Of a stretch of DNA of 52,788 bases, positions 9,047 to 52,633 are shown piece after piece. The notes under the pieces are model-generated. The model ran no database searches and had not been told where the DNA came from. It saw nothing but the letters and a program-made list of their open reading frames with translations. How positions within the stretch are numbered: the first letter of the stretch is position 1; each line of letters starts with the position of its first letter. The position numbers and the translations under genes are program-made. This stretch comes from an uncultured Bacteroidales bacterium (GTDB taxonomy: Bacteria; Bacteroidota; Bacteroidia; Bacteroidales; F082): assembly GCA_946405575.1 (NCBI GenBank), contig CAMJHP010000017.1, forward strand, positions 1 to 52,788, read 5' to 3'.

Positions 9047-10393
9047 ATGGGTTATATTATGGATAAAGTGTTTAAGAGAAAAGTATACCATCAATTGTTG
9101 GAATGGAAAGAAACCGAAAATGGTCGTACAGCCATTTTGGTGGAAGGGGCACGGCGCGTGGGGAAGTCCACGATTGTGGAACTGTTCGCGAAACAAGAGT
9201 ACGAGACCTATATCCTTATTGATTTCAATAAAGCAAGTAAGGCAATTATCGCATTATGGGATGACTTGAATGATTTGAATGTGATTTTCCTCAAATTGCA
9301 ACAAGAATATCGGGTGACACTTCATGAGCGCAAGTCTGTCATCGTTTTTGATGAGGTGCAGCATTGCCCGAAAGCACGCCAGGCCATCAAATATTTGGTG
9401 CAAGACGGCCGTTACGATTATATCGAAACAGGCTCGTTAATCAGCATTCACAAGAACACAAAGGATATTACCATCCCGAGCGAGGAGGATAGCATAACGA
9501 TGTATCCGATGGATTATGAGGAGTTTCGTTGGGCAATGGGTGATACGGCCTCCATCCCGTTGCTGAAGCAGCAGTTTGAGAAACGCATTTCGTTGGGCGA
9601 TGACATCGCTCGCTCCAAGATGCGCAACCTTCGTTTGTATATGTTGGTAGGTGGTATGCCGCAAGCAGTAAATACTTATTTGGACACGAATAATCTGGGC
9701 TTGGTAGATAAAACCAAACGAGGAATTATAAAGTTGTATCTTCAGGATTTTCAAAAAATCGACGCTACTGGAAATGCAGAACGTCTGTTTAAGAATATCC
9801 CTGCGCAATTAAGCAATAATGCTTCGCGGTATCAGCCATATACCGTGATTGGTCAACAGACGGAGAGCAAGATGGCGGAGTTGTTGCAGGACTTGGAGGA
9901 GAGCAAAACGGTGTTGTTTTGCCACCATTGCACAGACCCGAATGTGGGACTGTCATTGAATAAAGATTTGAGCCGATACAAAATGTTTGTGGCCGATACA
10001 GGCTTGTTCGTTACACTTGCGTTTTGGGACAAACGTTACACTGACAATATCATTTATGATAAGCTGTTGAGCGACAAGCTGGAGGCTAATTTGGGCTATG
10101 TGTACGAGAATTTAGTGGCGCAAATGCTGGCTTCGGCTGGAAATGAATTGTATTACTACACTTTCGCCAAGGATGCGAAACATAATTACGAGATAGACTT
10201 CATATTGTCTCGAGGCAATAAGATTTGTCCGATAGAAGTTAAGTCGTCGGGATATAAGACCCACAAGTCTTTGGATGCTTTTTCTGAGAAATTTTCATCG
10301 CGTGTGGGTGAGCGTTATCTTGTTTATACCAAAGACTTGCGCAAGGATGGTGAAACAACGCTGTTGCCGGTTTATATGACGGGGTTGATATGA
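9047..10393 (+). CDS. AAA_14/DUF4143-type ATP-binding protein
   Basis: A 448-residue protein of the family with an N-terminal P-loop ATPase and a C-terminal DUF4143 restriction-endonuclease-like region, abundant in Bacteroidota. The Walker A motif is GARRVGKST (34-42); Walker B is VIVFDEV with Asp102-Glu103. ETGSLISI follows as the sensor-1-like segment. Near the C-terminus, EIDFIL...ICPIEVKSSG resembles a PD-(D/E)XK core. The cellular role of the family is not established; members are often patchily distributed and close to defence or mobile genes. An in-frame ATG at 9059 is a possible alternative start. It is the first gene of the block inserted between the macroglobulin gene and pbpC. Confidence 0.85.
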   Translation: MGYIMDKVFKRKVYHQLLEWKETENGRTAILVEGARRVGKSTIVELFAKQEYETYILIDFNKASKAIIALWDDLNDLNVIFLKLQQEYRVTLHERKSVIVFDEVQHCPKARQAIKYLVQDGRYDYIETGSLISIHKNTKDITIPSEEDSITMYPMDYEEFRWAMGDTASIPLLKQQFEKRISLGDDIARSKMRNLRLYMLVGGMPQAVNTYLDTNNLGLVDKTKRGIIKLYLQDFQKIDATGNAERLFKNIPAQLSNNASRYQPYTVIGQQTESKMAELLQDLEESKTVLFCHHCTDPNVGLSLNKDLSRYKMFVADTGLFVTLAFWDKRYTDNIIYDKLLSDKLEANLGYVYENLVAQMLASAGNELYYYTFAKDAKHNYEIDFILSRGNKICPIEVKSSGYKTHKSLDAFSEKFSSRVGERYLVYTKDLRKDGETTLLPVYMTGLI

Positions 10394-36600: not shown

Positions 36601-37099
36601 CGTAGTCGAGGCCGATGATGTTGGGCAGTTGCTCCCAGTCGGCTTCTTTTTCAACGGGCTTGCCGTTCACGTAGGTGATTTTGAAGAGCGTTTTGATGGC
36701 GTTTTCGTAGTTTTTTTGTTTGAAGGCCACCGACCATTCCGCACGATACACGCAACCGTCGTTGGCGAGGAAGGTCAGCTTGCTATAGCCGAACTTTTTG
36801 CCGTGAGTGAGGATGTTGCGGGGGTCGGTGGGAGGAAGTCGGTTCTTTTCAGTGGTATCAGGCTCTCCGTAGATCTCGATGCTCTGGTTTCTGTCGCCTT
36901 TTTTCTTCGGATAACGTGGTGCGCGATTGTAAAGAGCAAGGCAGATAGCATCGAGTATGGTTGATTTGCCGCTACCCGTCGGGCCGACGATGCTGAAGAT
37001 GCTGCTTTCGCCCAGGGCACCTTTTTCAAAATTGATGACTTCGCCTTCCTTTTTGTCCAACGAGGCGAGGTTGAGTATTTCCAATTTGATGAGTTTCAT
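33698..37099 (-). CDS. sbcC: SbcC, ATPase subunit of the SbcCD nuclease
   Basis: An 1133-residue SMC-like protein. Walker A GPTGSGKST (39-47) is at the N-terminus, long coiled coils fill the middle, and a zinc hook CPLC is formed by Cys571 and Cys574 (in GKPCPLCGALEHPY). The C-terminal lobe has LSGGETFIVSLGLALGLSSL and LFIDEGFGSLD (Walker B). With SbcD it opens hairpins and trims protein-blocked or double-strand DNA ends. It starts 5 nt after the sbcD stop, so the two are co-transcribed. The hook sits almost exactly in the middle of the protein, as expected. Confidence 0.96.
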   Translation of the reverse strand: MKLIKLEILNLASLDKKEGEVINFEKGALGESSIFSIVGPTGSGKSTILDAICLALYNRAPRYPKKKGDRNQSIEIYGEPDTTEKNRLPPTDPRNILTHGKKFGYSKLTFLANDGCVYRAEWSVAFKQKNYENAIKTLFKITYVNGKPVEKEADWEQLPNIIGLDYEQFLRTVLIAQGSFANFLTAKEDERYELLEKLVGCEETYSRIAREIKAMKDKAMEDFRNMNSSVAAIEQNKLSEEQLQQLQEEISQLEATEKQLADALQKVKESLQWYVDDEAKAASVKAQEAKLNEAKEALEQIKDDIEQLGLHDALEQAIDILRETKRLEAEIESLGSKISTSEAEIKKIEERKKQEEDLLRQLEQKAAEIKKLIEEKAPHIKVARELLTKIDSTKETLKERLQTKAEAEKEWQAAQKAVSDNEAQVKAAQDAVASAVKAMKETETKVTEQKEVLRVAVETARKALEDKKKEIEGKDADELQSHSTRSEKALIDLKNAIDVLGRLEKARQDKMAKKAKRSELERRNKRIDTLLAPIDIETLSKEVETLRRSYTLMSSEAWAMHRSLLEEGKPCPLCGALEHPYTYDAAKFEAVETELNSLLKLKEQNLKEDTETVNRLTKEKEGNVREIESNCQWLVELDKEMSSLENQWKELLEQHPKFPQTKEELEALHPAFIKRCQDANAALKAFNKAQAEIATLTTKKENAEKAFSNYEQTSRELMDKAKETCTNAETALASTKAQTPNLTDQQTEKKSALDKAIAVWTEAKERLENLQKQFQAELDGEQPDAVEARLEKAKEDNEDEVSKKKNGIVLLDGKRKEAGGVLTSLKEQREHDQSQLESKKTALQQWTDAYNAEEERIKTIQITDIESVSAVPNERWEAIRRKKQVLNDAAVSATSLLESAKKALEEHQKAQPEKTRDELTQERDELQGREPNEALINARTKMKNHQDAVAQLGSNAAELDRLTKLKDDWTDITDAIGSDGKTLRKIAQCYTLSFLIEHANAEIRKFNNRYELTQVKHSLGIRVIDHDRADDVRDITSLSGGETFIVSLGLALGLSSLSSRNVSFENLFIDEGFGSLDPDTLSTVIDSLAMLQSKQGKKVGVISHTDTMSERITTQIRVVKNGNSGSSQIKFYP

Positions 37100-37104
37100 G
37101 TCGT

Positions 37105-38382
37105 TCAGTCGTTTGATTCGTTTTTGATGCCGCTTAATAAATCTGCGAGCAAAGCAGTTTGGTCTACGTTCATGTCGGTGCCGTGTTTAATGAGATAAGC
37201 CTCTTTTAGGGTCTCCATCGGGTCGCGGTTCAGGATGTCGTCGAGGCTTTTCATCTGCCGACTTCCGACGATGGTGGAAACATCAGTTTGTGGTATGATT
37301 TTTTGGATTTTGCAAAGCACGGCATTCTTCGTGTTCATCAGGTCTTCAAGTTCTCTAATGTCATCGTTGTTTGCCCTGTCCATCTTCACTTTGAGGACGA
37401 CATAGGAGTAGTCGTCGTCGGGCTTTTCGTGAAGTCGGTCGGGAAGTGCCTTCTTGATGAGCGTCTTGAGTTTGGCTGGCGACAGTTCGGCGTCGTCGTC
37501 GGGCAAAACCACGAGTTTGTGCTGAGGTTCGTAAACGATTTGTTCCACTTTAGGATGTCGACCCACCTCGAAAGTCACGAGGTCAATGCCGTGAGTGTAG
37601 TCTTTTTCGGCAAACGACATAGGCAAGACGCTTCCCGAATAGCGTGCCCAATCGGTATTCCAGATGTGTTGGCGTTTGTGGATGTGGCCGCAGGTCAGGT
37701 AGTCGGGGTGGTCGGTCCAACCTTCCATATTCACTTCTTCTTGTCCGCCGATGACGATTTTCTCGCTATAGTCGCTCTTTGCGATATCGGCACCTTTGGC
37801 GTACATATGGGCCATCATCACCAAGGTTTGGCCAGGATAAAGCTCCCTTGCGCGGTCGGTTATGGTATGCAGGAAAATATTAACGCCCTGCGAGTAGTTG
37901 GCGTTTTGCACTACATCGCTGCGAAGGTAGGGCACAGCCAGCACCACGACTTGTTCTCCATCGCTGTTGCTCACGGGAATCAGGAGATCGTCATAATCCA
38001 CTTGCCAATAGCCTTCTTCGTTTTCGGTGGATTGCTTCCATTTGCGATGCACGGTGCCACGAATCTCCACCTTGTGGCGTGTGAGCATAGGACGTGGTGC
38101 TTCCAGCCGACTTGCTGAGTCGTGGTTGCCGGCGGTGATGACGACTTGCATTTGTGGACAAGCTTGCGTGGCATCGGCCAAGAATTCGTAATACGCTGAT
38201 TGGGCGGCTGCTGAGGGGTTGCCATTGTCGAACACGTCGCCCGCCACGAGCAGGGCATCGGGCTGGTGGGTATTGATTTGGTCCAAAAGCCAGTTTAGGA
38301 AATGCGTGTGTTCCGGCAGTCGGTCGTTTCCGTGAAACAGGTTGCCCAAGTGCCAGTCGCTGGTTGCAATGATTTTGATCAT
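37105..38382 (-). CDS. sbcD: SbcD, nuclease subunit of SbcCD
   Basis: About 425 residues from the ATG at 38382 (MIKIIATSDWHLG). Metal-binding phosphoesterase motifs are DWHLG (Asp9, His11), VAGDVFDNG, TAGNHDS, MMAHMYAKG and LTCGHIHKRQ. The frame extends 39 codons further to 38499, but that stretch is unlike the family and begins close to the predicted transcription start, so it is excluded. It is an Mn-dependent exonuclease/endonuclease acting with SbcC. First gene of the sbcDC operon. Confidence 0.95.
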   Translation of the reverse strand: MIKIIATSDWHLGNLFHGNDRLPEHTHFLNWLLDQINTHQPDALLVAGDVFDNGNPSAAAQSAYYEFLADATQACPQMQVVITAGNHDSASRLEAPRPMLTRHKVEIRGTVHRKWKQSTENEEGYWQVDYDDLLIPVSNSDGEQVVVLAVPYLRSDVVQNANYSQGVNIFLHTITDRARELYPGQTLVMMAHMYAKGADIAKSDYSEKIVIGGQEEVNMEGWTDHPDYLTCGHIHKRQHIWNTDWARYSGSVLPMSFAEKDYTHGIDLVTFEVGRHPKVEQIVYEPQHKLVVLPDDDAELSPAKLKTLIKKALPDRLHEKPDDDYSYVVLKVKMDRANNDDIRELEDLMNTKNAVLCKIQKIIPQTDVSTIVGSRQMKSLDDILNRDPMETLKEAYLIKHGTDMNVDQTALLADLLSGIKNESND

Positions 38383-38510
38383 AGTGATTGGTATTTGAAA
38401 ATACTGTGGAGATGGAGGAGAATGAACCTCCCGCAACCTCCCGTTGATAATCAGTTGTTTACAGAATTTCAAGGACAATTGGTCGCAAATACGACACATT
38501 TTTCACTTCG

Positions 38511-40575: not shown

Positions 40576-41184
40576 TTAATGAGAGAAAACTTGTTTTCGA
40601 ATCAACTTCAACGCTCTGCTGCCAAGGCGATGTCCCTCTTTCCTTTCAATAAGAATCGTGTAACCATAGCCGAAACAAATCGCCTGATTTGACAGTACTC
40701 CTTCTGGGCCTATCAATTCATCGTGAATACAGAATAAGGCATAATCATGTTCGCCAGATGTTGGTTCATGCGTTTGGATAAACTCCTCAAATCTGCGGCA
40801 CACACCTTCATCAAGGATATATTGCTGTATTCCATCTTGCCGTGGGACGAAGTAGTCTTTAGTGCCGAACCCGACCGATTTGCGAATAAGATCCGCAATA
40901 TTGCAAGCTGGATTACAGATGATACGAAAAGCCTCACCAATATTTACATACATTAGATACAGTCCACCCAACGAGGTTCCAAGCAATACATAGGGCCTGT
41001 AGGTTTCGATTGCAGCATTGATGATTTTAACCGACTGTGCCAAATCTTCATTAACTTCCACGGCATACCAGTCGAACATTGGCAAATGCTTTTGCACGGA
41101 TTGGAGCGTGTCGGTATTGGCTCCAGAGCCTAATCCGTGGACATAAATTCCTTTTTGTAACGGACTATTGTTTATAGTTATCAC
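40576..41184 (-). CDS. YqiA-like alpha/beta-hydrolase
   Basis: A 202-residue esterase-like protein. The oxyanion segment is YVHGLGSGANTDT; the nucleophile elbow is GTSLGG with Ser71; Asp155 (in CIHDELIG) and His185 (in KEGHRLG) complete the triad. This matches the small YqiA/YcfP family, which hydrolyses short-chain esters in vitro and whose natural substrate is not established. Its ATG overlaps the previous stop by 4 nt (ATGA), so it is translationally coupled to the 411-residue gene upstream. Confidence 0.75.
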   Translation of the reverse strand: MITINNSPLQKGIYVHGLGSGANTDTLQSVQKHLPMFDWYAVEVNEDLAQSVKIINAAIETYRPYVLLGTSLGGLYLMYVNIGEAFRIICNPACNIADLIRKSVGFGTKDYFVPRQDGIQQYILDEGVCRRFEEFIQTHEPTSGEHDYALFCIHDELIGPEGVLSNQAICFGYGYTILIERKEGHRLGSRALKLIRKQVFSH

Positions 41185-42416
41185 CTTATTGATTTTTCTA
41201 TGGCTTTCAGTACGACCTCACACGGTTCAATCACCTTAATTGTCCGAAGTCCATCTGAACCACCGACTGAAAGTGTTATAAGACTACCTTCAGTTTGATG
41301 ATACCGAGCGATTTTCGTGGGTTCCACAGACACAATATATCTTATTCGGATAAAAACAGGCTTGTCATTGGCTTGCATCAACCTTATATAGCCTAGAATT
41401 GTCTCTTGGCATTTTTTCCGCCCTGACAATTCACTGCTTGCTATCATTGTCTCTAACGCGGCATCGCGAATGGTATGGTGTTCTTTTGATTGTTTTGGTT
41501 TCATTCTCAGTAATTCTTTGGGGAAGCAATCGGGGTGAATAATTTTGACCAACTCGAACAATTCCTCGGTTTTTTTCATCGCCAATTCCCTTGTTTTGTC
41601 ATCAAGCTTGTCAAAAGGATTCTCAACCTCATGGGCAAACGTCTTATTCTTTGGATGAATAATGCCTAATTCGTTCAGTCCAACAAACGACAACGAAAAA
41701 GCACTATTCTTGCCTATGAAAGCAATAGAAGAGGGTTTGTCGTTGGTTTCACGATCGACAATCTCCATTTCCTGTTTTTCGCCTTCAACCAAGAAGTTGT
41801 ACAGAAAACCTTTATACAACAGTTTCACTGGCCGCTCCCAAAACATGGGAGCGACGAGATCGTCAAAGACACATGGGAGAAGAACATCGCCCCTAAATGT
41901 ATATAATCCATACTTGCCATCCCACTTCGCCGTGAAGCCAAGACCGCCCGAACTGCGCCAATCAATCCGCACTTTTCCTTCTGGAGTTTTTATCTCACCT
42001 TGGGGTGTAAGGATAATCGTGGATTCTGGTTGAACAGGCACTTGGCCTTCATTGATACGAGGGCTGTGAATCAAAACGCAAACGTCACTAGCATAGTCAA
42101 CATAGTATTCATTTGTGCGTTGATGTGGCTTGTGATTTGAGATGCCGTATTTTTGTGAAATCAAAAACCCCCTAAGCCAATCCCAATCCCTTCTATCAGA
42201 AGATAAGAGAGGATCGAAATCGTCCTCTATGGTCTGTATGGTTTCGGACAAAATCACATCAATATTCCAACCTGCTTGTTCTGCAACTGAACGATACAAT
42301 CCAAATAAATCATCCTTGTCGATTTTGTCTTTTTCAAGGCAATATTTTATGTATGAATCCTCGAAAAACAGTTCAAGGTCTTTTTCTGAAATAGTGGTTT
42401 TTGCAATTGTAAGCAT
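41181..42416 (-). CDS. WG-repeat-like protein of unknown function, paralogue of 49468-50736
   Basis: A 411-residue soluble protein. Residues ~1-205 closely parallel the protein at 49468-50736: TTISEKDLELF versus TTINEKDIEQF, QAGWNIDVILSETIQTIE versus KAGWMIDSILSDTIQEIE, STIILTPQGEI versus STIILSPQGEI, and LLPCVFDDL versus LFPCIFDYV. The KWDGKYGLYTFRGDVLLPCVFD stretch resembles a WG repeat (a beta hairpin often found as a ligand- or protein-binding unit). The C-terminal halves differ more. No catalytic motif. It overlaps the YqiA-like gene by 4 nt. Confidence 0.65.
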   Translation of the reverse strand: MLTIAKTTISEKDLELFFEDSYIKYCLEKDKIDKDDLFGLYRSVAEQAGWNIDVILSETIQTIEDDFDPLLSSDRRDWDWLRGFLISQKYGISNHKPHQRTNEYYVDYASDVCVLIHSPRINEGQVPVQPESTIILTPQGEIKTPEGKVRIDWRSSGGLGFTAKWDGKYGLYTFRGDVLLPCVFDDLVAPMFWERPVKLLYKGFLYNFLVEGEKQEMEIVDRETNDKPSSIAFIGKNSAFSLSFVGLNELGIIHPKNKTFAHEVENPFDKLDDKTRELAMKKTEELFELVKIIHPDCFPKELLRMKPKQSKEHHTIRDAALETMIASSELSGRKKCQETILGYIRLMQANDKPVFIRIRYIVSVEPTKIARYHQTEGSLITLSVGGSDGLRTIKVIEPCEVVLKAIEKSIR

Positions 42417-42434: not shown

Positions 42435-43061
42435 TTAGTCGTCGTTCAGTAGGTAAAATGAATAGGTACGGCTTCGCTCCAATACATCGTATTCCGTTTC
42501 CGTATGATAATGCAAGATGCTGGCATCCATGATGAAGTCCGTGCGTTCCGTGCCGTTTGTCGGCAATTCATCGTAAGGCATGAACAGTGTCGTCTTTGTC
42601 GTGCAGTCGTTGTATGTGGGTGAAGTGTATTGACCTACTATCACATTGCCGTTGACTGACAAATACTTTCTGTTGTAGTTCTTTTGTGCCAATGGCGATC
42701 CATCCTCATTGTAGAAACGCACCAGACAATACAAGTCTGCGTCTTTGAGATTCTTTGTCTCAAATTCCACCGTTATCGTCATGCCTTTTTCGCCGTCCTC
42801 ATGGGTGTTGTGGTCGACAAAAATATGCTTGACGGTGGCCGTTGGCTTGACTTCAGTGTTTTGTACCTGATGATAGGTAACGGTGTTGTCTTGCGTATCA
42901 TCATTCCTCTGAATGACAATCTCTTGCTTGTTGCCCTTCGAGAACGCCCAGCCAAAAATCTTGTAGGCCAATGCACCTTCGCCGAAGAGAAGCAATACCA
43001 GCGGAATGATAACAACAAGCAAGATGACAACAAGCAATATCTTGAACAAACCTTCAATCAT
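42435..43061 (-). CDS. Single-pass membrane protein of unknown function
   Basis: A 208-residue protein with one strongly hydrophobic N-terminal helix (residues 5-27, LFKILLVVILLVVIIPLVLL) lacking a signal-peptidase site, so it is probably membrane-anchored. The remainder is a beta-rich domain (MTITVEFETKNLKDADLYCLVRFYNEDGSPL...) that could be an immunoglobulin-like fold. No family is recognised. It is 3 nt downstream of the small gene at 43065 and 18 nt upstream of the WG-like gene. Confidence 0.6.
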   Translation of the reverse strand: MIEGLFKILLVVILLVVIIPLVLLLFGEGALAYKIFGWAFSKGNKQEIVIQRNDDTQDNTVTYHQVQNTEVKPTATVKHIFVDHNTHEDGEKGMTITVEFETKNLKDADLYCLVRFYNEDGSPLAQKNYNRKYLSVNGNVIVGQYTSPTYNDCTTKTTLFMPYDELPTNGTERTDFIMDASILHYHTETEYDVLERSRTYSFYLLNDD

Positions 43062-43064
43062 GGT

Positions 43065-43313
43065 CTATCTCCTTCCATAAACTTGATTATAATCATATTC
43101 TTCGTACTTCTTGGCAATCTGATGCAGATGATGCGCAAACTCGTTCCGTGTCGTGTAAATCTCGTATCGTCTGGCATACTCGTCGATGAGGTCTTCCAAC
43201 GAGACCTTTCTGTCATAATGATTGTTGATGGCATCTCGAACCGGATGTGACTTGGAGACTTCTGAAATGCCGTAACCGATGGCTCCAGATAATAAACTTT
43301 TGATTACACTCAT
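43065..43313 (-). CDS. Small protein of unknown function
   Basis: An 82-residue protein starting MSVIKSLLSGAIGYGISEVSKSHPV, with a short glycine-rich amphipathic start followed by charged helices. Function is not recognised. It is followed after 3 nt by the membrane protein gene; a 64-nt gap separates it from the SIS gene upstream, with no convincing promoter in it. Confidence 0.5.
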   Translation of the reverse strand: MSVIKSLLSGAIGYGISEVSKSHPVRDAINNHYDRKVSLEDLIDEYARRYEIYTTRNEFAHHLHQIAKKYEEYDYNQVYGRR

Positions 43314-43377: not shown

Positions 43378-44430
43378 TCAAAGCAATCCCTTAAACGGAG
43401 TGTTCTTCGGGAAACGTTTGTCTATGCCGCAAGGATTCTGGGGCGAACAGGGCTTTTCGTCATAAGCCTTGGCGATTTCGTCAAACAGGACATACATCTT
43501 GACGAGCAAATCCATCGTTGCCAAAGGAGAATCCAATGCTGTCTCGACCTTGATAACTGGGGTGTTACTAAGAAACACGTCTTTCTTGTCTCTCCAGGTA
43601 ATGCCCCAAATCAAGTCTTTTGCAAACTGCTGTTCTCTTGGCGTCAAGAAAAGGACGAGAGCCGAATCATTCAAATGCTTGGAAAGGAAGATAAACCTTC
43701 CATGACACCAGTTCCTATAGTCACAGAGTTGGACGCTGGCCATTCCTGACTCAACCATTTTCGACTCAAAATCGACGGCAACCGGCCTGCTCCAACCATT
43801 GTAAAGAACAATGTAGTTCTTGATGTCTTGGAGCTTGGGAATCTCACCTTCGACCCTTGGAGCATAATTGAAACAATGGTCAAGTGTCGTGTCAACATGT
43901 AGTTTGTTAAGCGTGTCGCCATCGTTGGTAAAAGCCTTGTAAAGCAGCCCGAACTTACAAATCACATCGATGGTGGCGATGAAAGATTTGGGCTGGGTGA
44001 GCCATTCATAGACAAGCCATTGGGACCCCGCCTTTTTAAGCGTTTTGACGACTTCGTTATCCTCTGTTTCCCTGACCAAGGCACAAGTGTTTTCGGGATT
44101 GACTTTTGCCGCTCGTTTTGCCACATACTTCTCATCCACTCCTTTCCCTGCAGTTGTCGTAAAGAAAACCTTGGAGGCCGCGAGTGCCTTGTCTGAAATG
44201 GACGACAAGGACAATGGTGTCAAAGCTTTTGCCATTCCTTGGTTAGCTTCATAGAGCAAAGCCGCGTAATCCATAGCGCTGAATGAGCCTCCGCTCCCCA
44301 AGCAATAAAGCGGCTGTTGCGGATGCTCCATGAAGAACTTTCTCAGTCCTTCCACATCCTGATTCCCTGCCCAATTTAATGCAGTTGGAATCATTGAAAG
44401 GGATTCGTTGAATTTGATTTTGTTTGACAT
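43378..44430 (-). CDS. SIS-domain-like protein
   Basis: About 350 residues. The N-terminal third contains LYCLGSGGSFSAMDYAALLYE and PLSLSSISDKAL, then VFFTTTAGKGVDEKYVAKRAAKV, matching the phosphosugar-binding order of SIS domains, though the SxS/T loop reads GGSFSA. A second lobe (YIVLYNGWSRPVAVDFESKMVESG) is like the second SIS half. No kinase or aminotransferase part is attached. The ligand could be a phosphosugar or a nucleotide. ATGs at 44439 and 44430 are both possible. It is 5-14 nt downstream of the DUF2130 gene. Confidence 0.6.
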   Translation of the reverse strand: MSNKIKFNESLSMIPTALNWAGNQDVEGLRKFFMEHPQQPLYCLGSGGSFSAMDYAALLYEANQGMAKALTPLSLSSISDKALAASKVFFTTTAGKGVDEKYVAKRAAKVNPENTCALVRETEDNEVVKTLKKAGSQWLVYEWLTQPKSFIATIDVICKFGLLYKAFTNDGDTLNKLHVDTTLDHCFNYAPRVEGEIPKLQDIKNYIVLYNGWSRPVAVDFESKMVESGMASVQLCDYRNWCHGRFIFLSKHLNDSALVLFLTPREQQFAKDLIWGITWRDKKDVFLSNTPVIKVETALDSPLATMDLLVKMYVLFDEIAKAYDEKPCSPQNPCGIDKRFPKNTPFKGLL

Positions 44431-44443
44431 GAGCTTCATTTAT

Positions 44444-45891: not shown

Positions 45892-45927
45892 CAAAATTAT
45901 GACGCACCTACGAACATTTTGTTCGTA
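45892..45927 (-). promoter_or_regulatory. Promoter with WYL-type operator, site A1 (DUF2130 operon)
   Basis: Minus-strand -7 box TAATTTTG (plus-strand CAAAATTA, 45892-45899). The perfect palindrome TACGAAC-ATTTT-GTTCGTA (45909-45927) starts exactly 9 nt upstream of it, covering the -33 region. The same layout recurs at 46496-46531 and 52174-52209. The -33 TTTG is missing, which fits an operator replacing or masking it. Confidence 0.85.
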
Positions 45928-45936
45928 ACCATTAAA

Positions 45937-46467
45937 TTATTCGCAAACATATTCCTTGAAGTTGGAATCGGCTCTTCTTAATTTGGGGTTGAAACATTTT
46001 TTCTCTTGATACTTGGTTTCATCCTCGTAGAAAACTTTTGGGACTTTACTCCAAAGTTCCATCCTGCCGCCAGGCAAATCTGAAAACGGGCTGGCGTTAT
46101 CGAGCCAGTCGCTGTCATAGGACTGGGAGTATTTGCCCAAGATGACACATTCACCGTCCACCCCTTCCATCTCGCAGAAGGTGGCGACAAAAGGTAGCGA
46201 CCACTCTCCGTCCTCCTGGTGATAGGAGAAGCCACACACTGACTTGGTAGGGATGAACCAACGCAGTATGCCGCCCAAGTCGATGAACGGTTTTGTCTTG
46301 GGGAAAAGTGGCAAGTGGGAAATCTCGTTAGGGTTGCGACGATAGTATCCGGCAACCACAATAGACCTCATCTGTTCCGGGCGTACGGCTTTGGGATTGA
46401 TGCTGTATTCGGTTTCATTGTCGATTCGCAGCACCACGATTTCTTCAGACTGATAGATTGTTTCCAT
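45937..46467 (-). CDS. Protein of unknown function under both operators
   Basis: A 176-residue soluble protein: METIYQSEEIVVLRIDNETEYSINP, then WFIPTKSVCGFSYHQEDGEWSLPFVA, and a C-terminal part rich in Tyr, Asp, Glu and Lys. No signal peptide or known family. It is transcribed alone or with the DUF2130 operon (90-nt gap containing site A1). Its 206-nt upstream region has two tandem promoters, one with each palindrome type (46496-46531 and 46591-46630), which makes it the point where the two WYL regulators are predicted to meet. Confidence 0.55.
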   Translation of the reverse strand: METIYQSEEIVVLRIDNETEYSINPKAVRPEQMRSIVVAGYYRRNPNEISHLPLFPKTKPFIDLGGILRWFIPTKSVCGFSYHQEDGEWSLPFVATFCEMEGVDGECVILGKYSQSYDSDWLDNASPFSDLPGGRMELWSKVPKVFYEDETKYQEKKCFNPKLRRADSNFKEYVCE

Positions 46468-46495
46468 AGCTTATTGATTTTTTAGTTTCACGATG

Positions 46496-46531
46496 CAAAA
46501 GTATGAATGAGATACGAACGTTTTGTTCGCA
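46496..46531 (-). promoter_or_regulatory. Promoter with WYL-type operator, site A2
   Basis: Minus-strand -7 box TACTTTTG (plus-strand CAAAAGTA, 46496-46503), then TACGAAC-GTTTT-GTTCGCA at 46513-46531, again 9 nt upstream. One arm differs by a single base (GTTCGCA). It would give a ~20-nt leader for the gene starting at 46467. Confidence 0.85.
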
Positions 46532-46590
46532 GCCTTTGGTGTTTTTGTATTAACGATGCCAGTCATAACCATTTATTTTGAATTACGGGG

Positions 46591-46630
46591 CAAAGAAACA
46601 GCAAACTTGAGCCAAATTATAGCTCAAGTT
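46591..46630 (-). promoter_or_regulatory. Promoter with second operator type, site B2
   Basis: Minus-strand TTTCTTTG (46591-46598, one mismatch to TAnnTTTG) lies 5 nt from a 27-bp palindrome: AACTTGAGC (46604-46612), CAAATTATA (46613-46621), GCTCAAGTT (46622-46630). The spacer is nearly identical to that of site B1. It lies just after the smaller WYL gene and reads towards the gene at 45937-46467. Confidence 0.75.
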
Positions 46631-46673
46631 GAAAATTGGTAATAAAAAACGAAATTAAATTTCTATTTCAAAG

Positions 46674-47447
46674 TCATCTATACATTGCTGGCAGTTTCTT
46701 GATTCCTAACATTATTAAATCGGAATAAAGAAGAGAATCTTCATCGAAAAAACTATTATGACGGTTCAAATCAAGTTCTTCAATGTACTTCTTAAGCGAA
46801 AAGTTTTCGGGATAATTTGTGGCTGTCTCACCAACCATTTCACATACCTCGCTTATATCTTCCAACCTGTAAGTCCTTATTTGACCACTCCACTTGCTCT
46901 TGGCAGTAAATAGACCAATGACATACCAATGTTCCGCAGCCTGAAGCATCGCTAAAGGGCAGTAATACTCATAACGAAAATCTATATCCTCGCAATTTCT
47001 CATAGAAGGGTCTTTCCGCGCTTCTTCCAATGAAATGAAAATCCTGAATTGTATCACCGTCCTTTGTTTGACAAACTGAACCATAATGGGCAGAAGCGGA
47101 TGGTGCTTCACATCATAGTCTATGATTCTGTCCTTCAGAAGAGGGTCTTCTTCGATGGCTGTCTGGACGGACAGCGTATCAAGAAATCTTGACATCCATC
47201 TATCTTGTTGCTCGTCTTCAAGAATGGAGTATTTATATCCTCCCTTTCGCTCACATACGATTCTCATGTCGAATGTCCCTTGAATTGCCTCCAAATGATT
47301 CCGGAAGGTTTTCTTGGGAAGCTCCTCGCCATATTCATTCAATTGGGAGCGAAGCCAAAGCGCATTGATTTCCTCATACGAGATTGGCCCGAATGTTCTG
47401 ATGGTGTTGATCAGCCAAAGATACTTTTTTAATAGGTTGTTTGCCAT
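46674..47447 (-). CDS. WYL-domain transcriptional regulator (short form)
   Basis: A 257-residue regulator. Residues 1-75 are a helix-turn-helix (YLWLINTIRTFGPISYEEIN and KKTFRNHLEAIQGTFDM). Residues ~120-210 form the WYL-type sensor domain with YYCPLAMLQAAEHWYVIGLFTAKS and RTYRLEDI; the tryptophan-tyrosine pair is in WYVIG. WYL proteins bind a small ligand or single-stranded DNA and often repress stress or defence genes. Its promoter carries palindrome B1 (47469-47508) and a related palindrome (B2) lies just past its stop, so it probably represses itself and the next gene. Confidence 0.8.
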   Translation of the reverse strand: MANNLLKKYLWLINTIRTFGPISYEEINALWLRSQLNEYGEELPKKTFRNHLEAIQGTFDMRIVCERKGGYKYSILEDEQQDRWMSRFLDTLSVQTAIEEDPLLKDRIIDYDVKHHPLLPIMVQFVKQRTVIQFRIFISLEEARKDPSMRNCEDIDFRYEYYCPLAMLQAAEHWYVIGLFTAKSKWSGQIRTYRLEDISEVCEMVGETATNYPENFSLKKYIEELDLNRHNSFFDEDSLLYSDLIMLGIKKLPAMYR

Positions 47448-47468
47448 GAGGGGTTATGTTTTTCGCCG

Positions 47469-47508
47469 CAAAGATACAAATAACTTCGGCCAAATAATAG
47501 CCGAAGTT
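47469..47508 (-). promoter_or_regulatory. Promoter with second operator type, site B1 (short WYL gene)
   Basis: Minus-strand -7 box TATCTTTG (plus-strand CAAAGATA, 47469-47476), then a perfect 9-bp palindrome 5 nt away: AACTTCGGC (47482-47490), CAAATAATA (47491-47499), GCCGAAGTT (47500-47508). The same arm and spacer lengths and the same 5-nt distance occur at B2. Confidence 0.85.
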
Positions 47509-47533
47509 GTGTCGCGCAAAAAGAAAAATCTAT

Positions 47534-47568
47534 CCCACTGGGATTGATTCTTTTCCAATCCCAGTGGG
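47534..47568. repeat. Perfect 13-bp inverted repeat
   Basis: CCCACTGGGATTG (47534-47546) and CAATCCCAGTGGG (47556-47568) flank a 9-nt loop. It lies in the 322-nt gap between the short WYL gene and the gene at 47770-48225, upstream of operator B1. It may be a dispersed repeat or a terminator for the upstream transcript, although no T run follows in the minus direction. Confidence 0.8.
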
Positions 47569-47640
47569 ATTGTATTGTCGTTGTTGCTAACCTTGGACAA
47601 ATGAGGTTCGCTCAACAGACAATAGGAACATTTATGCTTG

Positions 47641-47735
47641 GCCAACAATATTGGCTACTCTGCCCCTTGTAGTTTTGGCCATTACACGCGCAAGACAACA
47701 AGCGAGTTTGTCCGGTTTGACAGATTCGCTTGTCT
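47641..47735. repeat. Two further inverted repeats downstream of the 47770-48225 gene
   Basis: GCCAA-CAATA-TTGGC (47641-47655) and a larger hairpin with arms AGACAACAAGCGA (47693-47705) and TCGCTTGTCT (47726-47735). Together with the repeat at 47534-47568 they fill the gap 47509-47769, in which no gene is seen. Confidence 0.55.
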
Positions 47736-47769
47736 AGCATCATAGAATTGTTCGGTTGTTCAACATTAG

Positions 47770-48225
47770 TTAAGATCTTTCCGCTCTCCAATCCATGCCC
47801 AAAAGCTCAAACATGTTGTTTAACTGGCTTATTTTACGGTCAGTACCAGAATGAGTCAACACAAACCAAGTACTTCCGTCTGTATCTCTGCATTCCCTCA
47901 CCCAAGTATCTTTTTCGACATTTGGCCTTTCTCGACTTACAATTTGAGTGTTTTGATTATCATGAAACCTTTGGTATCCAATTTCCTCTATTGCGAATAA
48001 TAAAGCATCAATAGGCGGAAATGTACTGGAAACACCGTCATGCAGAATTCTTATACCATTTCTTCTTCCTTCTGCATTTATTTGTTGTGTTACCTCTACT
48101 TCGGTCATGTTAGGGATAAGTGTAATTGTAACCCTATAGCCATCGGCCAATAATGTTTGTAATTCTTCGTTGTGAGATTCAAGTATTCTTTCAATCTCAC
48201 GCTTTACTACTTCTCTTTCTGGCAT
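47770..48225 (-). CDS. Protein of unknown function
   Basis: About 151 residues from ATG 48225 (MPEREVVKREIERILESH). The frame opens earlier (48285), but the first 20 codons overlap the previous gene and look unnatural. An amphipathic helix is followed by RVTITLIPNMTEVEVTQQINAEGRRNGIRIL and WFVLTHSGTDRKISQLNNMFELLGMDW. It has no signal peptide and no recognised family. It lies 35 nt after the LRR gene and is probably co-transcribed with it. Confidence 0.55.
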   Translation of the reverse strand: MPEREVVKREIERILESHNEELQTLLADGYRVTITLIPNMTEVEVTQQINAEGRRNGIRILHDGVSSTFPPIDALLFAIEEIGYQRFHDNQNTQIVSRERPNVEKDTWVRECRDTDGSTWFVLTHSGTDRKISQLNNMFELLGMDWRAERS

Positions 48226-48260
48226 AGTTTTAATTATTAAGTTTAAGTTTAGAAGATTAG

Positions 48261-49370
48261 TTATTTTATGGTTTTGTATGCACAAATCTTGCAGTTACCA
48301 GATGAGTCAATGTCGGGATTTGCCAATGATTCTGGAATAAAGATATTTCCATAACAACCTCCAAATGCATCAGATTCAATGACTTCAACACTCTCTGGAA
48401 CTACAAAAAGAGGAAGATCTATCTCATCAAAAGCACCTTGTGCAATGCATTTTACACTATCTGGAATACTCGTTTTTGGACATCCTGCAATTAGCTTATT
48501 ACATGCTGTCTCGACAATGGCATTGCAATTGTCACGGGAATCATAAATGGGATTATCTGATGATACCACAATTGAGGTGAGGCCATCACAATTTGAGAAA
48601 ACACCACAACCAATGCTTGTTACATTTTTTGGGATTATTATAGATTTCAATTTTATACAACTCGCAAAAGCCTCGTCGCCAATGCTTATTACACTATCTG
48701 GAAATATCAAAGAATTCAACTCGAAGCAGTGCGCAAATGCCCTATCACCAATTCTTCTTACACTATTGGGAATAATGATAGATTTTAAATACTCACAATC
48801 CGAATCCGAAAAAGCAGCAGGGCCAATGCTTGTAATGTAATTTGGTATAGTCATTTCATCAAGTTCATAATGATACAACTTGCAATCTTTTAAACAGACA
48901 TCTCCATTTTTCTGCTCAATTTCAAATCGACAATCTCGCCAGCCGTTGATACAAACACTTGTTACGCCTTCAGGAATTGAGGTGTTTTGGCAATCGGCTA
49001 TTATCATTTTTTCCGACGTTTCAATAATCGCATTGCAGTTGTCTCGAGAATCAAAATACTTGTTCCCTGACTCTACCACTATTGAGGTCAGTCCGACACA
49101 GCCATCAAACGCACTATCACCAATTCTTTCCACATTTCGTGGAATGAATATAGAAGTGAGACCCATACATCCCAAAAATGCACCACCGCCAATAAATCTG
49201 ACACTATTTGGGATGACAACAGAGGTTAATCCTCCACAATCACTAAACGCATCATCATCTATAGATGTTACTCCGTCAGGAATCACGATTTCTCCTTTAA
49301 CATCCTCTGAACACTTCGTCAAGACAACCTCACCGTCTTGATTTTCAATTGTTAACCATTTGTTTTCCAT
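48261..49370 (-). CDS. BspA-type leucine-rich repeat protein without signal peptide
   Basis: A 369-residue protein built of LRR_5/BspA-type repeats of ~23 residues: VIPDGVTSIDDDAFSDCGGLTSV, VIPNSVRFIGGGAFLGCMGLTSI, FIPRNVERIGDSAFDGCVGLTSI and several later ones, plus two YDSRDNCNAI(V/I)ET linker blocks that mark an internal duplication. BspA proteins are usually surface-exposed, but this one has no signal peptide (starts MENKWLTIENQDGEVVLTK), so it is likely cytoplasmic and part of a protein-recognition device. It lies 98 nt after the WG-like paralogue. Confidence 0.85.
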   Translation of the reverse strand: MENKWLTIENQDGEVVLTKCSEDVKGEIVIPDGVTSIDDDAFSDCGGLTSVVIPNSVRFIGGGAFLGCMGLTSIFIPRNVERIGDSAFDGCVGLTSIVVESGNKYFDSRDNCNAIIETSEKMIIADCQNTSIPEGVTSVCINGWRDCRFEIEQKNGDVCLKDCKLYHYELDEMTIPNYITSIGPAAFSDSDCEYLKSIIIPNSVRRIGDRAFAHCFELNSLIFPDSVISIGDEAFASCIKLKSIIIPKNVTSIGCGVFSNCDGLTSIVVSSDNPIYDSRDNCNAIVETACNKLIAGCPKTSIPDSVKCIAQGAFDEIDLPLFVVPESVEVIESDAFGGCYGNIFIPESLANPDIDSSGNCKICAYKTIK

Positions 49371-49467
49371 ACCATTGTTTATTCTTAAGTTAATAATTGT
49401 TCTTTTTGACGCTAAACTTCTACCAACAAATAATAGTTCAATTTGTGTTTTTTTTAATGCTTGATTT

Positions 49468-50736
49468 TTAGTCTATTGCATGTTCTTTTCTCACATAATC
49501 AACAACCCTTTGAGCTACCGGCTTCCCCACATATTCAGACAATATAAAGAAAAGCTCATCCTCTGGAATTTCAGCGATACAAGAATAACCCTTATTGTCC
49601 ATATAACCGTATAATGCATCACTTGCAGCCACCCACGTTAATTCACATGCATAATAATCGTTTCTATCATATTCTTCCTTTTTGCTCACTTTATAAAAGT
49701 CTTCCTGATTTTCTGTTAGATATGCAGTAATTTCAGGGATGACTATTTTTCTTTCTTCCATTTTGGAATGAACACCTTTCTTTGATTCCTCTTTCTCATC
49801 AGGTTTGACTTTATCAGGAAAAACTTCAACTCCAGATAGAGTTAAAAGCTCATCTTTTGTAAAAATGTGATGATATGAACATAGTTCTTTTCTCAAATCA
49901 TCTTTGTTTTCTTCTATTAACCTTTGCTGTTCTTCTTTTGGAAGATTGCTAAATGTATCCTCTCCTTCTTGATTATAAATGGTAATCGCCCCATGATGTA
50001 TTTCACCGTCATTCACAAATCCAAGACAAACAACCTGATACACCTTGTCATCACTTTGGAAACAAAAACATCTGTTTGAATCTTCGGCCATCATTGCCAA
50101 ATGGTCTTTTTCTATTTGTGAGACCGTTCCTAACAGAATATATTGATACTTGCAGCCTTTGTATTGTATTTTTCCGATATGAAGGTATTCGTCATTTTGA
50201 ACATAATCAAATATGCAAGGGAAGAGAGGTGTGCCTTTCTCCGAATAAATCCCAAACATCTCTTTCCAACGAGCCGTAAAGCCATGACATCTTGAAAGAC
50301 TTCTCTCGTTAAGCCATACTTGTCCCTCTTGTACCATTATCTCTCCTTGGGGTGAAAGAATAATGGTGGAAGTAGGTTTTACTATTTCTTGATTCCTAAC
50401 GATATGTGGACTATTCACCAATACACAATCATCGCTTGCAAACATGATACAGTATTCATTCGTACCACCTCTTGGGTATTCTATGAGAATGTCATACTTT
50501 TCAGAAATCAAGAACCTTCTAAACCAAGTGCGTACTCGCCAATTCTCAATTTCCTGTATGGTGTCTGACAGTATAGAATCTATCATCCAACCTGCTTTTT
50601 CAGAAACAGCACAAAGGGATGCAGACACTCTTTCTTGCGATTGATTCTCTATTTCAAGGTTGTAACCCATGTGAGAAGAAAGCAGAAATTGTTCTATGTC
50701 TTTCTCGTTAATCGTGGTTCTATTGACTCTAATCAT
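49468..50736 (-). CDS. WG-repeat-like protein of unknown function, paralogue of 41181-42416
   Basis: A 422-residue soluble protein whose first ~205 residues match the protein at 41181-42416 closely (matched segments are listed in that entry). It adds a lysine/glutamate-rich linker (~310-330) and a distinct C-terminal part: PEITAYLTENQEDFYKVSKKEEYDRNDYYACELTWVAASDALYGYMDNKGYSC. The ARWKEMFGIYSEKGTPLFPCIFDYV stretch is WG-repeat-like. It is 68 nt downstream of the small DUF4177-like gene. Role unknown; the shared N-domain suggests two related adaptors in one locus. Confidence 0.65.
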   Translation of the reverse strand: MIRVNRTTINEKDIEQFLLSSHMGYNLEIENQSQERVSASLCAVSEKAGWMIDSILSDTIQEIENWRVRTWFRRFLISEKYDILIEYPRGGTNEYCIMFASDDCVLVNSPHIVRNQEIVKPTSTIILSPQGEIMVQEGQVWLNERSLSRCHGFTARWKEMFGIYSEKGTPLFPCIFDYVQNDEYLHIGKIQYKGCKYQYILLGTVSQIEKDHLAMMAEDSNRCFCFQSDDKVYQVVCLGFVNDGEIHHGAITIYNQEGEDTFSNLPKEEQQRLIEENKDDLRKELCSYHHIFTKDELLTLSGVEVFPDKVKPDEKEESKKGVHSKMEERKIVIPEITAYLTENQEDFYKVSKKEEYDRNDYYACELTWVAASDALYGYMDNKGYSCIAEIPEDELFFILSEYVGKPVAQRVVDYVRKEHAID

Positions 50737-50804
50737 ATTTTTTCACTGTTCCGTGTCGTGCGCAACTTTATATAAGACTTCATTTATTGTTCTTAATAAA
50801 CTCT

Positions 50805-50996
50805 TTATTGTGTTTCTTTGTCTGTCAATTCTCTTTGAAGTAGCAAAACGCATCCACAATCATTGCCCAACACATAAGAAGATATCTGGACAATCCTCCA
50901 TCCATTATTCAACAAATCCTTCAATTCTGGAGGGAATTCAACTTCTTCATACCACTCGCGACCATTAAATTCAACTCTAAATAATTTTTGTTCCAT
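50805..50996 (-). CDS. Small DUF4177-like protein
   Basis: A 63-residue protein: EYN/VEFNGREWYEEVEF, then LKDLLNNGWRIVQISSY and DCGCVLLLQRE. The order 'LN-x-GW-x-(5)-S' followed by a terminal VLLLxR strand resembles DUF4177. It lies directly downstream of the long WYL regulator, and its own promoter region (51048-51083) contains a -7 box and a weak copy of the TACGAAC palindrome. Confidence 0.55.
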   Translation of the reverse strand: MEQKLFRVEFNGREWYEEVEFPPELKDLLNNGWRIVQISSYVLGNDCGCVLLLQRELTDKETQ

Positions 50997-51047
50997 AGCA
51001 ATTGCGTTTTAATTATGTTTTGATTTGTTTTTCTAATTTTTACGATG

Positions 51048-51083
51048 CAAATTTACAAATTTCTCACAAACATTTCATTCACA
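51048..51083 (-). promoter_or_regulatory. Promoter with degenerate WYL-type operator, site A4
   Basis: Minus-strand -7 box TAAATTTG (plus-strand CAAATTTA, 51048-51055) followed, after 9 nt, by CACAAAC-ATTTC-ATTCACA (51065-51083), which keeps 5 of 7 and 4 of 7 arm bases of the TACGAAC-N5-GTTCGTA consensus. The spacing is identical to sites A1-A3. It partly overlaps the 3' end of the long WYL gene. Confidence 0.5.
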
Positions 51084-52146
51084 ACCCCAAATATCTGTCA
51101 CTCATTCCTTTAATCCGTTCCTCAATCTCCTTGCGAATGTTTGTCGGCTCCAAAACAACCAGCTCCTGTCCATAAGAGCAAAGCTCACGAATCAACTCAT
51201 AGTTTCGTTTGCAGTCAATCCTGAAGAAACGGCCTCCTTGCAGAGAGGAATAGGCTTTGCGCAAAGCCGCTTCTTCCAAATTCAGGGTCTTTTGTGATTC
51301 GTGCAAAGGCTTGGTCATCACATAATCCACCGAAAAGTCGCTGACCCAAAAGACAATTTGATTGATAGGCTCCGCTTCATAAATGGAGACCCCGATAACA
51401 TCCTCAAACAACTCGTTCAAGTTGCCGTCGTATTCCTTGTATTTAACCGATGGGAGTGGCACAATCTTGTCCATGCGGTCTAAAGGGAAGCATTTCAATT
51501 TGTCGTTTTCCACTTTTTTCGCAAACAAGTACCATCTGCCGTTGTATTGCCGCAACAAATAGGGATGCAGATTATAAACGCGGTCGTTTTCGGGTGCGGT
51601 GAATTGATGGTAATGCAGCTCTATGACTTGCCGCTGCGATATGGCCGTAAACAACTCACCAAAAAGATTGGTGTTTTCCAAAGGATTCTTGGTGAGCGAG
51701 ATGATAGGCTGGTCGGTCGATGACGGACGAAGGCTTTGTCGGAGCCGCTCAAGACCTTCCAACTTTGGCAATCCATCGAACTGGCCAAGCAGCGAAAACA
51801 ATTCCCGCAACAGGTATTGTTCCTCCGAACTCAGTTTTTGCTTGAAAATGGAGAAAGACGGATCCGCGTATCTCAAGCATTGCTTCTTATAAGTTCTATT
51901 CCTTTCGTAATTATCATAGTCAACCGAATACCTTTCTATCTCTACCCAAAAAGGGCCTTCGTTTTCAAGGAAGTGAATGTCTTTCTCGATGGTGCGACGC
52001 ACCACGCAATCGCCATCAGGCCGCATTTCGGCAAGACGGCGGTTGACCTCTTTCGTCAAGTCATCGAGGGAATAGTTGTGATACCGGTCGCTCAACAGCT
52101 CGTCCAGTATCTTGTATCGCATGATGGCGTTTTTGTTGATGGGCAT
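51079..52146 (-). CDS. WYL-domain transcriptional regulator (long form, BrxR/CapW-like)
   Basis: A 355-residue regulator with the layout of defence-linked WYL repressors. Residues 1-95 are a winged helix (YKILDELLSDRYHNYSLDDL, VVRRTIEKDIHFL). The WYL domain (~160-250) has VIELHYHQF, YNLHPYLLRQYNGRWYLFAKKV and KCFPLDRMDKI. The remainder (~265-355) is a WCX-like dimerisation part (VSDFSVDYVMTKPLHESQKT). Such proteins bind palindromes as dimers and release them when nucleic-acid ligands appear. The TACGAAC palindrome in its own promoter and at two others in the window makes it the likely A-site repressor. Confidence 0.85.
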   Translation of the reverse strand: MPINKNAIMRYKILDELLSDRYHNYSLDDLTKEVNRRLAEMRPDGDCVVRRTIEKDIHFLENEGPFWVEIERYSVDYDNYERNRTYKKQCLRYADPSFSIFKQKLSSEEQYLLRELFSLLGQFDGLPKLEGLERLRQSLRPSSTDQPIISLTKNPLENTNLFGELFTAISQRQVIELHYHQFTAPENDRVYNLHPYLLRQYNGRWYLFAKKVENDKLKCFPLDRMDKIVPLPSVKYKEYDGNLNELFEDVIGVSIYEAEPINQIVFWVSDFSVDYVMTKPLHESQKTLNLEEAALRKAYSSLQGGRFFRIDCKRNYELIRELCSYGQELVVLEPTNIRKEIEERIKGMSDRYLGL

Positions 52147-52173
52147 AGGACTCTTTTTATTGAAACATCGCTA

Positions 52174-52209
52174 CAAAGATAATCTTTTTTTACGAACAAT
52201 TAGTTCGTA
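52174..52209 (-). promoter_or_regulatory. Promoter with WYL-type operator, site A3 (long WYL gene)
   Basis: Minus-strand -7 box TATCTTTG (plus-strand CAAAGATA, 52174-52181), 28 nt upstream of the ATG at 52146. The perfect palindrome TACGAAC-AATTA-GTTCGTA (52191-52209) starts 9 nt upstream of the -7. This predicts autoregulation. Confidence 0.88.
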
Positions 52210-52633
52210 ACATAGGCTGCTGCAAAATTACAAAACAACCTATGCCAAGAACGGGCTTAGGTTTTTTGCATAATATCCACAAAAAAGCCAGCCCAGTAAT
52301 CGCTTGATTATCAAGGCTGGCTTATTGGTTCAGGTCGATTGATCGGCCCAAGTGGAGATGGAGGGGCGGTTGGCATAATTTTACATAATTTTCTTTGATA
52401 ATTAAATATCTGTTATTTAGAGGTTTATCATAAAAATGGCATTATGTAGAATCATACTCCATTGAAAGGCTTTATGAATTCGGGGGACTACTTGCGCGCC
52501 GAGATTTTCGATGTTGATATTATGCAAACACAATTTGTTCATGTCCTTATAAACCAACAACAAGCGACCCGAAGGCCGACCCGCCTACACACACACTTTT
52601 CCCTTCACAGCCGCAGATTTGCGAAAAAACACG
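52210..52633. other. Gene-free stretch
   Basis: Apart from the hairpin at 52285-52323 I see nothing functional. An AT-rich segment lies at 52375-52450. A 71-codon plus-strand frame (52462-52677) has an unlikely composition and runs through the terminator hairpin, so it is not called as a gene. Confidence 0.5.
52285..52323. terminator. Perfect 9-bp hairpin in the gene-free stretch
   Basis: AAGCCAGCC (52285-52293) pairs with GGCTGGCTT (52315-52323), preceded by A6 and so followed by T6 in the minus direction. It may end leftward transcription before the long WYL gene. Confidence 0.65.

Follow-up and report, generated by a model that had tools for sequence, protein, structure and literature searches.

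The 52,788-nt contig CAMJHP010000017.1 of an uncultured Bacteroidales bacterium (lineage F082), analysed over its whole length and called the window here, encodes a long regulator of the WYL family, WYL1, and carries three promoter sites of one build (Table 1). Each site consists of a 19-bp palindrome, TACGAAC-N5-GTTCGTA, which we term the WYL1 operator, and a TAnnTTTG (-7) box that comes next on the minus strand at a distance of exactly 9 nt. The palindrome is exact ahead of the DUF2130 gene and of wyl1 itself, and has one mismatch ahead of the gene for a 176-aa protein. An earlier reading of this DNA (the sequence-only reading) had described three such palindromes, one of them one base off, at 9 nt from TAnnTTTG and with one site ahead of the long WYL gene, and both its coordinates and its geometry are borne out. 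Across ten loci, all 17 palindromes with at most one mismatch lie exactly 9 nt from their box, and the spacer letters vary freely between these sites while the distance is fixed. The arm position at which the 46513 copy deviates is A or G in 17/17 sites (T or C in the opposite arm), so its single difference is no defect.

WYL1 belongs to the WYL transcription factors, built of a winged helix-turn-helix (HTH), a WYL domain and a WCX domain. The latter two are matched in Pfam (PF13280, 49 bits against a cut-off of 21.8; PF25583, 31.2 against 23.9), and the same search gave no HTH match; the winged HTH is predicted from the structure model, with helices at residues 5-18, 27-41 and 50-62 and strands at 70-79 and 84-93 (mean predicted local distance difference test, pLDDT, 81.7; predicted template modelling score, pTM, 0.54). 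The top folds, PafBC (E 5.9e-15) and DriD (7.8e-15), are matched along the length of their chains and are followed by CapW (4.8e-10) and BrxR (1.9e-9). Carriage of WYL1 by phages or plasmids was considered and rejected: no viral contig holds a close relative or the exact pattern, and the 18 matching plasmid records are all below 60% identity, at 29-33% in the ten matches listed.

Table 1. Sites and genes of the window.
Feature	Position	Strand	Remarks
208-aa protein	42435..43061	minus	possible end of the DUF2130-led operon
82-aa protein	43065..43313	minus	71% identical counterpart in L018 sits directly behind a WYL1 operator
353-aa protein	43378..44439	minus	just downstream of DUF2130; weak NagB-II-like match below cut-off
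DUF2130 protein, 467 aa	44444..45847	minus	predicted target; predicted long helix, possible PD-(D/E)XK nuclease core (D256, E275-x-K277; low-confidence model)
WYL1 operator and -7 box	45892..45927	minus	operator 45909-45927, box TAATTTTG 45892-45899, gap 9 nt; ahead of DUF2130 gene
176-aa protein	45937..46467	minus	predicted target; no family in Pfam, PADLOC or NCBIfam
WYL1 operator and -7 box	46496..46531	minus	operator 46513-46531, box TACTTTTG 46496-46503, gap 9 nt; ahead of 176-aa gene
27-bp palindrome	46591..46630	minus	AACTTGAGC-N9-GCTCAAGTT (46604-46630), 5 nt from TTTCTTTG (weaker box); upstream of 46513 WYL1 operator
WYL2, 257 aa	46674..47447	minus	second WYL-like regulator; weak WYL match, PADLOC only
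27-bp palindrome	47469..47508	minus	AACTTCGGC-N9-GCCGAAGTT (47482-47508), 5 nt from TATCTTTG; ahead of WYL2
WYL1, 355 aa	51079..52146	minus	predicted winged HTH, WYL and WCX (Pfam); predicted recognition helix RRTIEKD
WYL1 operator and -7 box	52174..52209	minus	operator 52191-52209, box TATCTTTG 52174-52181, gap 9 nt; box about 28 nt ahead of WYL1 start codon
Tentative third WYL2-type palindrome	52237..52263	minus	two symmetric differences, 6 nt from TAATTTTG; upstream of WYL1 operator

How specific is this pattern? In the genome itself, which is 73.8% complete, so that additional sites are possible, the bare palindrome with at most one mismatch occurs at the three window sites and one other (C36:4793), and with at most two mismatches at 11 places against 13 for a control pattern, the motif read backwards. 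Palindrome (at most one mismatch) plus box at 9 nt is found three times, always within the window, and the control not at all. Among 295 genomes of the order, the composite pattern has 10 sites in four genomes, exactly those with a WYL1 at least 47% identical, and none of the ten is more than about 8 kb away from the WYL1 gene; the control gives five scattered single matches. Relatives of WYL1 at E<=1e-40 occur in 7 of the 295 genomes, the present one included, and the pattern is absent from all 291 that lack a close WYL1, three of which have a relative at 34-37% identity. Two further loci located by protein similarity, L018 and L019, hold two and three sites. In the genus, 20 of 99 genomes encode WYL1 at E<=1e-70, and the pattern, written TNCGAAC, has five sites in two of the 99 (the present genome and G715; control, two matches). 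It is absent from all 79 members without WYL1 and also from the other 18 with it, because their operator and helix differ. With 1968 proteins at E<=1e-50, the family is a large one. At E<=1e-60 only the present genome and G021 have WYL1 among 395 genomes of the class, and in the families of G292 and G111 (9 and 15 genomes) only these two do. The sequence-only reading had held the coincidence of three sites hard to get by chance and predicted a regulon from it, which a palindrome common genome-wide without relation to promoters, or conserved in relatives without the WYL gene, would refute; for the composite, TNCGAAC-type pattern neither is seen in the genomes sampled.

The letters of the operator change with the predicted recognition helix. 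This helix is RRTIEKD in window WYL1, L018, L019, L021 and G715, QRCIEKD in G021 and RRCIEKD in G111. Among the 20 genus genomes with WYL1, such an E-K-D helix is confined to the two that have the TNCGAAC pattern; the others have RRTIELD (16 genomes), IRTIQYD (G694) or a broken copy, E-L-D by eye (G702). Nearly all of these non-E-K-D genes have sites of a TNCGAAA-N5-TTTCGNA type ahead of them, in unchanged geometry. As the G715 protein, 58% identical to window WYL1, is no nearer to it than E-L-D proteins are, the operator tracks the helix and not general similarity. With at most one mismatch, the TNCGAAA variant has 26 sites in 16 of the 99 genomes, 13 of them with WYL1, against one control match; the exceptions (G710, G713, G732) have a single one-mismatch match each and no WYL1 at E<=1e-70. 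In four E-L-D genomes (G747, G728, G693, G687) the sites depart further from this variant, yet their distance to the box is again 9 nt.

A looser definition (CG in each arm, at least four of five inner pairs, bases 5 and 7 free, box sought 3-16 nt from the operator) extends the comparison to 30 loci. The distance is 9 in 58 of 62 cases; the other four are 5, 11, 15 and 16. At E-K-D loci (7 loci, 17 sites), 30 of the 34 arms have C at base 7 and four have T, while at E-L-D loci (17 loci, 37 sites) 70 of the 74 arms have A there and four have G; L071 (IRTIQYD, two sites) and L020 (LRTVQSD, one site) have C5 and A7 in 6/6 arms. Two more TNCGAAC-like sites of L020, with one arm base changed and ahead of another gene, fall outside the definition, and L024, L025 and L026 have no site. 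Since C5 also appears in 13 of the 74 E-L-D arms, a tie between residue 54 and arm base 5 is only suggestive. In the WYL1 tree, E-L-D and Q-Y proteins form one clade (98/96) with E-K-D proteins spread around it; judged by eye, the helix switched from K to L once and from E to Q twice. The sites are thus real, local and linked to promoters, and both their co-occurrence with WYL1 and the covariation of helix and operator tie them to this protein. Because they accompany WYL1 and their base 7 tracks its recognition helix, WYL1 likely binds the palindromes, and judged from these sequences it very likely reads the three window sites. We hold this part of the explanation, a WYL1 regulon with its operator, with high confidence.

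In relatives, WYL1 is encoded alongside defence-type genes, and the genes directly behind the sites differ from locus to locus. Reverse transcriptases follow at 259-322 nt from box to start in L021 and L022 (retron-type by PADLOC), in L066, and in L072-L074 (assigned by a similar N-terminus). AAA_15-type ATPases follow in L019, L063, L069 and L071, a PIF1-like helicase in L063, a UvrD-like one in L022, a HATPase in L064, a HAD protein in L023, and proteins with weak aspartyl-protease matches in L023 and L062. Wider neighbourhoods include SbcCD and DpnI in L018, a nuclease of the YhcG type in L065, a ShosA/DprA-like protein in L023, and both a histidine-kinase-conflict protein and a NERD helicase in L021. 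Long untranslated stretches separate promoter and reverse transcriptase at L021:2046-2303 and L022:14044-14304, and in L066, L072, L073 and L074 the next gene begins 314-322 nt past the box. These stretches are candidate non-coding RNAs; Rfam has no match across those of L021 and L022, and only three tRNAs were found in the five sources searched. L019 has a near-identical duplicated WYL1 promoter (6934-6969 and 9913-9948) with other genes between, the first copy being followed by a short open reading frame like a truncated WYL1 start. L020 encodes, in line behind its two TNCGAAC-like operators, a 314-aa protein (6899-7843) in which an N-terminus 52% identical to L023:8115-8780 is joined to a WYL1-type C-terminal half (49-55%), a WYL half without HTH.

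How, then, would WYL1 act? In the explanation we prefer, to which we give a probability of roughly 0.52 as a whole, WYL1 dimers on the sites would activate wyl1 and the DUF2130-led genes; binding, dimerisation, signal and the sign of control are the parts of it that we infer. An infection or DNA-damage signal would fill the WYL domain, and WYL1 dimers bound to the 19-bp palindromes 9 nt ahead of the -7 boxes would then turn on transcription of these genes. With the box centred on -7, as placed from the accessible part of PMC7366714, the operator would span roughly -39 to -21 with one half-site near -26, where a dimer could contact the housekeeping RNA polymerase and take the place of the absent -33 element, much as the mycobacterial regulators PafBC and SiwR act. 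Among the proteins so induced would be a possible PD-(D/E)XK nuclease that has a long coiled coil; together with its partners it would act against phage or damaged DNA.

The exact spacing with free spacer letters favours a protein that touches RNA polymerase, since a blocking repressor has no such need. None of 57 WYL-type sites has TTTG at 18-22 nt ahead of the box, whereas 17 of 109 control promoters do; a smaller test (0/11 against 7/41) gave no clear result. The fixed 9 nt and the lack of a TTTG -33 element fit an activator of the PafBC and SiwR kind as well as a repressor or better. Of the "one dimeric repressor" of the sequence-only reading, the local regulon of the WYL gene is supported and the sign of control is not; we lean slightly towards activation. 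With positions taken from PMC7366714 and not from mapped starts, the geometry would fit a fixed element near -26 and a poor -35.

Several observations weigh against this explanation. The depletion of TTTG follows from the operator occupying those positions, the sites are related to one another, and a TTG-only test over 17-23 nt shows no difference (10/57 against 25/109), because some operators carry TTG in their 5-nt centre. Sites of related loci are not independent, so neither are the covariation counts, and the looser definition was derived from the same 30 loci on which it was counted. The three distant homologues in the order have no such site. Three of the seven E-K-D loci (L018, L021, L062) lack a site directly ahead of WYL1, and self-control is therefore not universal; in L018 the targets of the two sites belong to no Pfam family, nor does the target of site 1424 in L062. 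Template modelling (TM) scores for the full-length PafBC and DriD chains are only 0.26-0.45, normalised to the query, and those for full-length CapW and BrxR are low as well. Of the two ssDNA-sensing arginines of the PafB WYL domain, R211 and R214 (named in the part of PMC11804915 available), WYL1 keeps one (R214=R224; R211=P221). BrxR and CapW, the WYL proteins with a link to defence that have been studied most, are repressors by the accessible accounts (PMC9122588, PMC9122601, PMC9122589), and the Acinetobacter BrxR site, with half-sites 5 nt apart and overlapping -35, resembles the WYL1 operator (PMC9122589, in part).

The chief rival follows from these last points: WYL1 would be a repressor of the BrxR/CapW type that blocks RNA polymerase at about -39 to -21 until released by a phage-supplied ligand. 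Both proteins are described as binding palindromes in their own promoters and repressing, the pocket residue pattern of WYL1 matches theirs, and a site lies directly ahead of WYL1 in 17/17 E-L-D loci (16 by script, L065 by coordinates). However, simple occlusion needs no single spacing, the nearest folds are activators, and, in the excerpts of the papers, CapW sites overlap -10 and E. fergusonii BrxR sites lie downstream of it. We consider such a repressor a serious contender but the less probable one. Could another DNA-binding protein, such as WYL2 or a chromosomal regulator, read the TNCGAAC sites instead? WYL2 sits in the same island and the assignment to WYL1 is drawn from sequence, but WYL2 has its own, different palindromes, the sites accompany WYL1 across families, and base 7 tracks the WYL1 helix, which makes another reader improbable. 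That a promoter cassette without regulatory meaning was copied between genes by recombination, as the two nearly identical copies in L019 (6934 and 9913) might suggest, is scarcely credible, since the three window sites, like most others compared, have spacers and flanks of their own but keep arms and distance.

One predicted target of WYL1 is the DUF2130 protein. The model suggests an alpha-beta-beta-beta-alpha-beta core at low confidence (pLDDT about 47-80), D256 and E275-x-K277 are invariant in 38 sequences that are all at least 65% identical, and of known folds that of EcoT38I, a restriction enzyme, matches best (E 1.5e-3, TM-score 0.20-0.26); the protein may be a PD-(D/E)XK nuclease. Judging by search results, no paper on the function of DUF2130 was found. 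The domain is matched in 8 of 30 genus members, the present genome included, four of them without WYL1 at E<=1e-70. On a plasmid of Chryseobacterium oryzae (L080) a distant WYL gene (32%) heads a row of genes that continues with DUF2130, a DNA methyltransferase and restriction subunit S, and DUF2130 may belong to a restriction system; this is an independent pairing of WYL and DUF2130. A palindrome 8-9 nt ahead of a box stands there in front of DUF2130, the only one so placed among six distant plasmid relatives, in none of which a palindrome-box pair was found ahead of the WYL gene. In the window, a scan of ten proteins for defence functions gave WYL models and weak LmuB, CARF and Cas3c matches only. 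The regulon of the sequence-only reading, said there to be of unknown purpose, holds as a local WYL regulon, its purpose now amended: the island is a predicted defence island whose genes are presumed to be anti-phage.

Among the neighbours, many homologues of the 353-aa protein in the matches listed are about 550 aa long, some of those with an HTH domain. The proteins at 41181-42416 and 49468-50736 are paralogous (37% identical over 278 residues, no Pfam match). On the same strand, an SbcC/SbcD-like pair at 33698-38499 is similar to the one in the sister locus L018, which has WYL1 on one side and a WYL2-like gene on the other. The island also holds a second WYL-like gene with 27-bp palindromes of its own, which the sequence-only reading had missed. 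Palindromes of this family, AACTTNNGC-N9-GCNNAAGTT, lie 5-6 nt from -7-like boxes and adjoin WYL2, the 176-aa gene and WYL1. In the genome the exact pattern occurs only as the 46604 and 47482 copies; at up to two mismatches there are 15 places against 15 for the control. The 176-aa gene may answer to both WYL1 and WYL2, and cross-wiring of the two regulators is possible, as a lead, not a finding.

The wider picture, which we put forward tentatively, is a Bacteroidota-specific family of WYL activators whose fixed promoter architecture (19-bp operator, 9 nt, TAnnTTTG) replaces the -33 element and switches on whole, exchangeable defence cargoes, with a specificity that drifts by a two-residue code: K55 with C7, L/Y/S55 with A7, and Q54 with C5. 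Under such a code, every island would have a private channel, insulated from those of neighbouring islands. The present results make a testable induced-defence regulon out of what was an anonymous island in a Bacteroidales-like bacterium, its operator can be searched for to find further genes wired to a WYL1-type regulator, and the joint change of recognition helix and operator is a natural experiment. The regulon also bears on a question of wide interest: do WYL activators turn some defence islands on, where WYL repressors would instead release them? No paper on a TNCGAAC-type WYL operator was found among the papers listed for WYL in Bacteroidetes, Bacteroidales and Prevotella, as seen from titles and the starts of abstracts.

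How WYL1 compares with characterised WYL regulators can be told from excerpts of the papers on them. BrxR of E. fergusonii and Acinetobacter is, like WYL1, a WYL-family regulator beside defence genes (BREX and defence islands); its own promoter holds an inverted repeat with arms 5 nt apart, and the island of E. fergusonii contains a further site (PMC9122601, PMC9122589). The trait of a palindrome in the own promoter, shared by BrxR and CapW, is present here as the putative operator at 52191-52209. In contrast, BrxR arms are 10-11 nt long (7 nt in the WYL1 operator), its chains have 291-295 aa (355 in WYL1), its sites are positioned differently, and no fixed promoter distance such as the 9 nt of WYL1 is reported in those excerpts. 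CapW shares the family, palindromes of 19-24 bp and the single-arginine pocket, which the alignment also shows in the compared BrxR chains, but its sites overlap -10 (PMC9122588), whereas WYL1 operators end 9 nt ahead of the -7 box at all three window sites; no CBASS protein is among the ten window proteins scanned. DriD of Caulobacter is a homodimeric WYL activator of similar fold, with a 20-bp pseudo-palindrome and a site ahead of its own gene, although its sites appear to lie at different promoter positions and its main contacts are to beta and the carboxy-terminal domain of alpha (PMC12340889). PafBC, the best fold match, is a heterodimer in which only the HTH of PafB contacts the promoter, unlike the proposed WYL1 dimer; it has two pocket arginines where WYL1 keeps one, and it governs the DNA damage response rather than predicted defence targets. 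SiwR, a mycobacterial activator, acts through -26, its 19-bp palindrome lying between -35 and -10 (PMC10693628), and the binding element of PafBC and SiwR near -24 to -26 is where the WYL1 operator half-site would lie.

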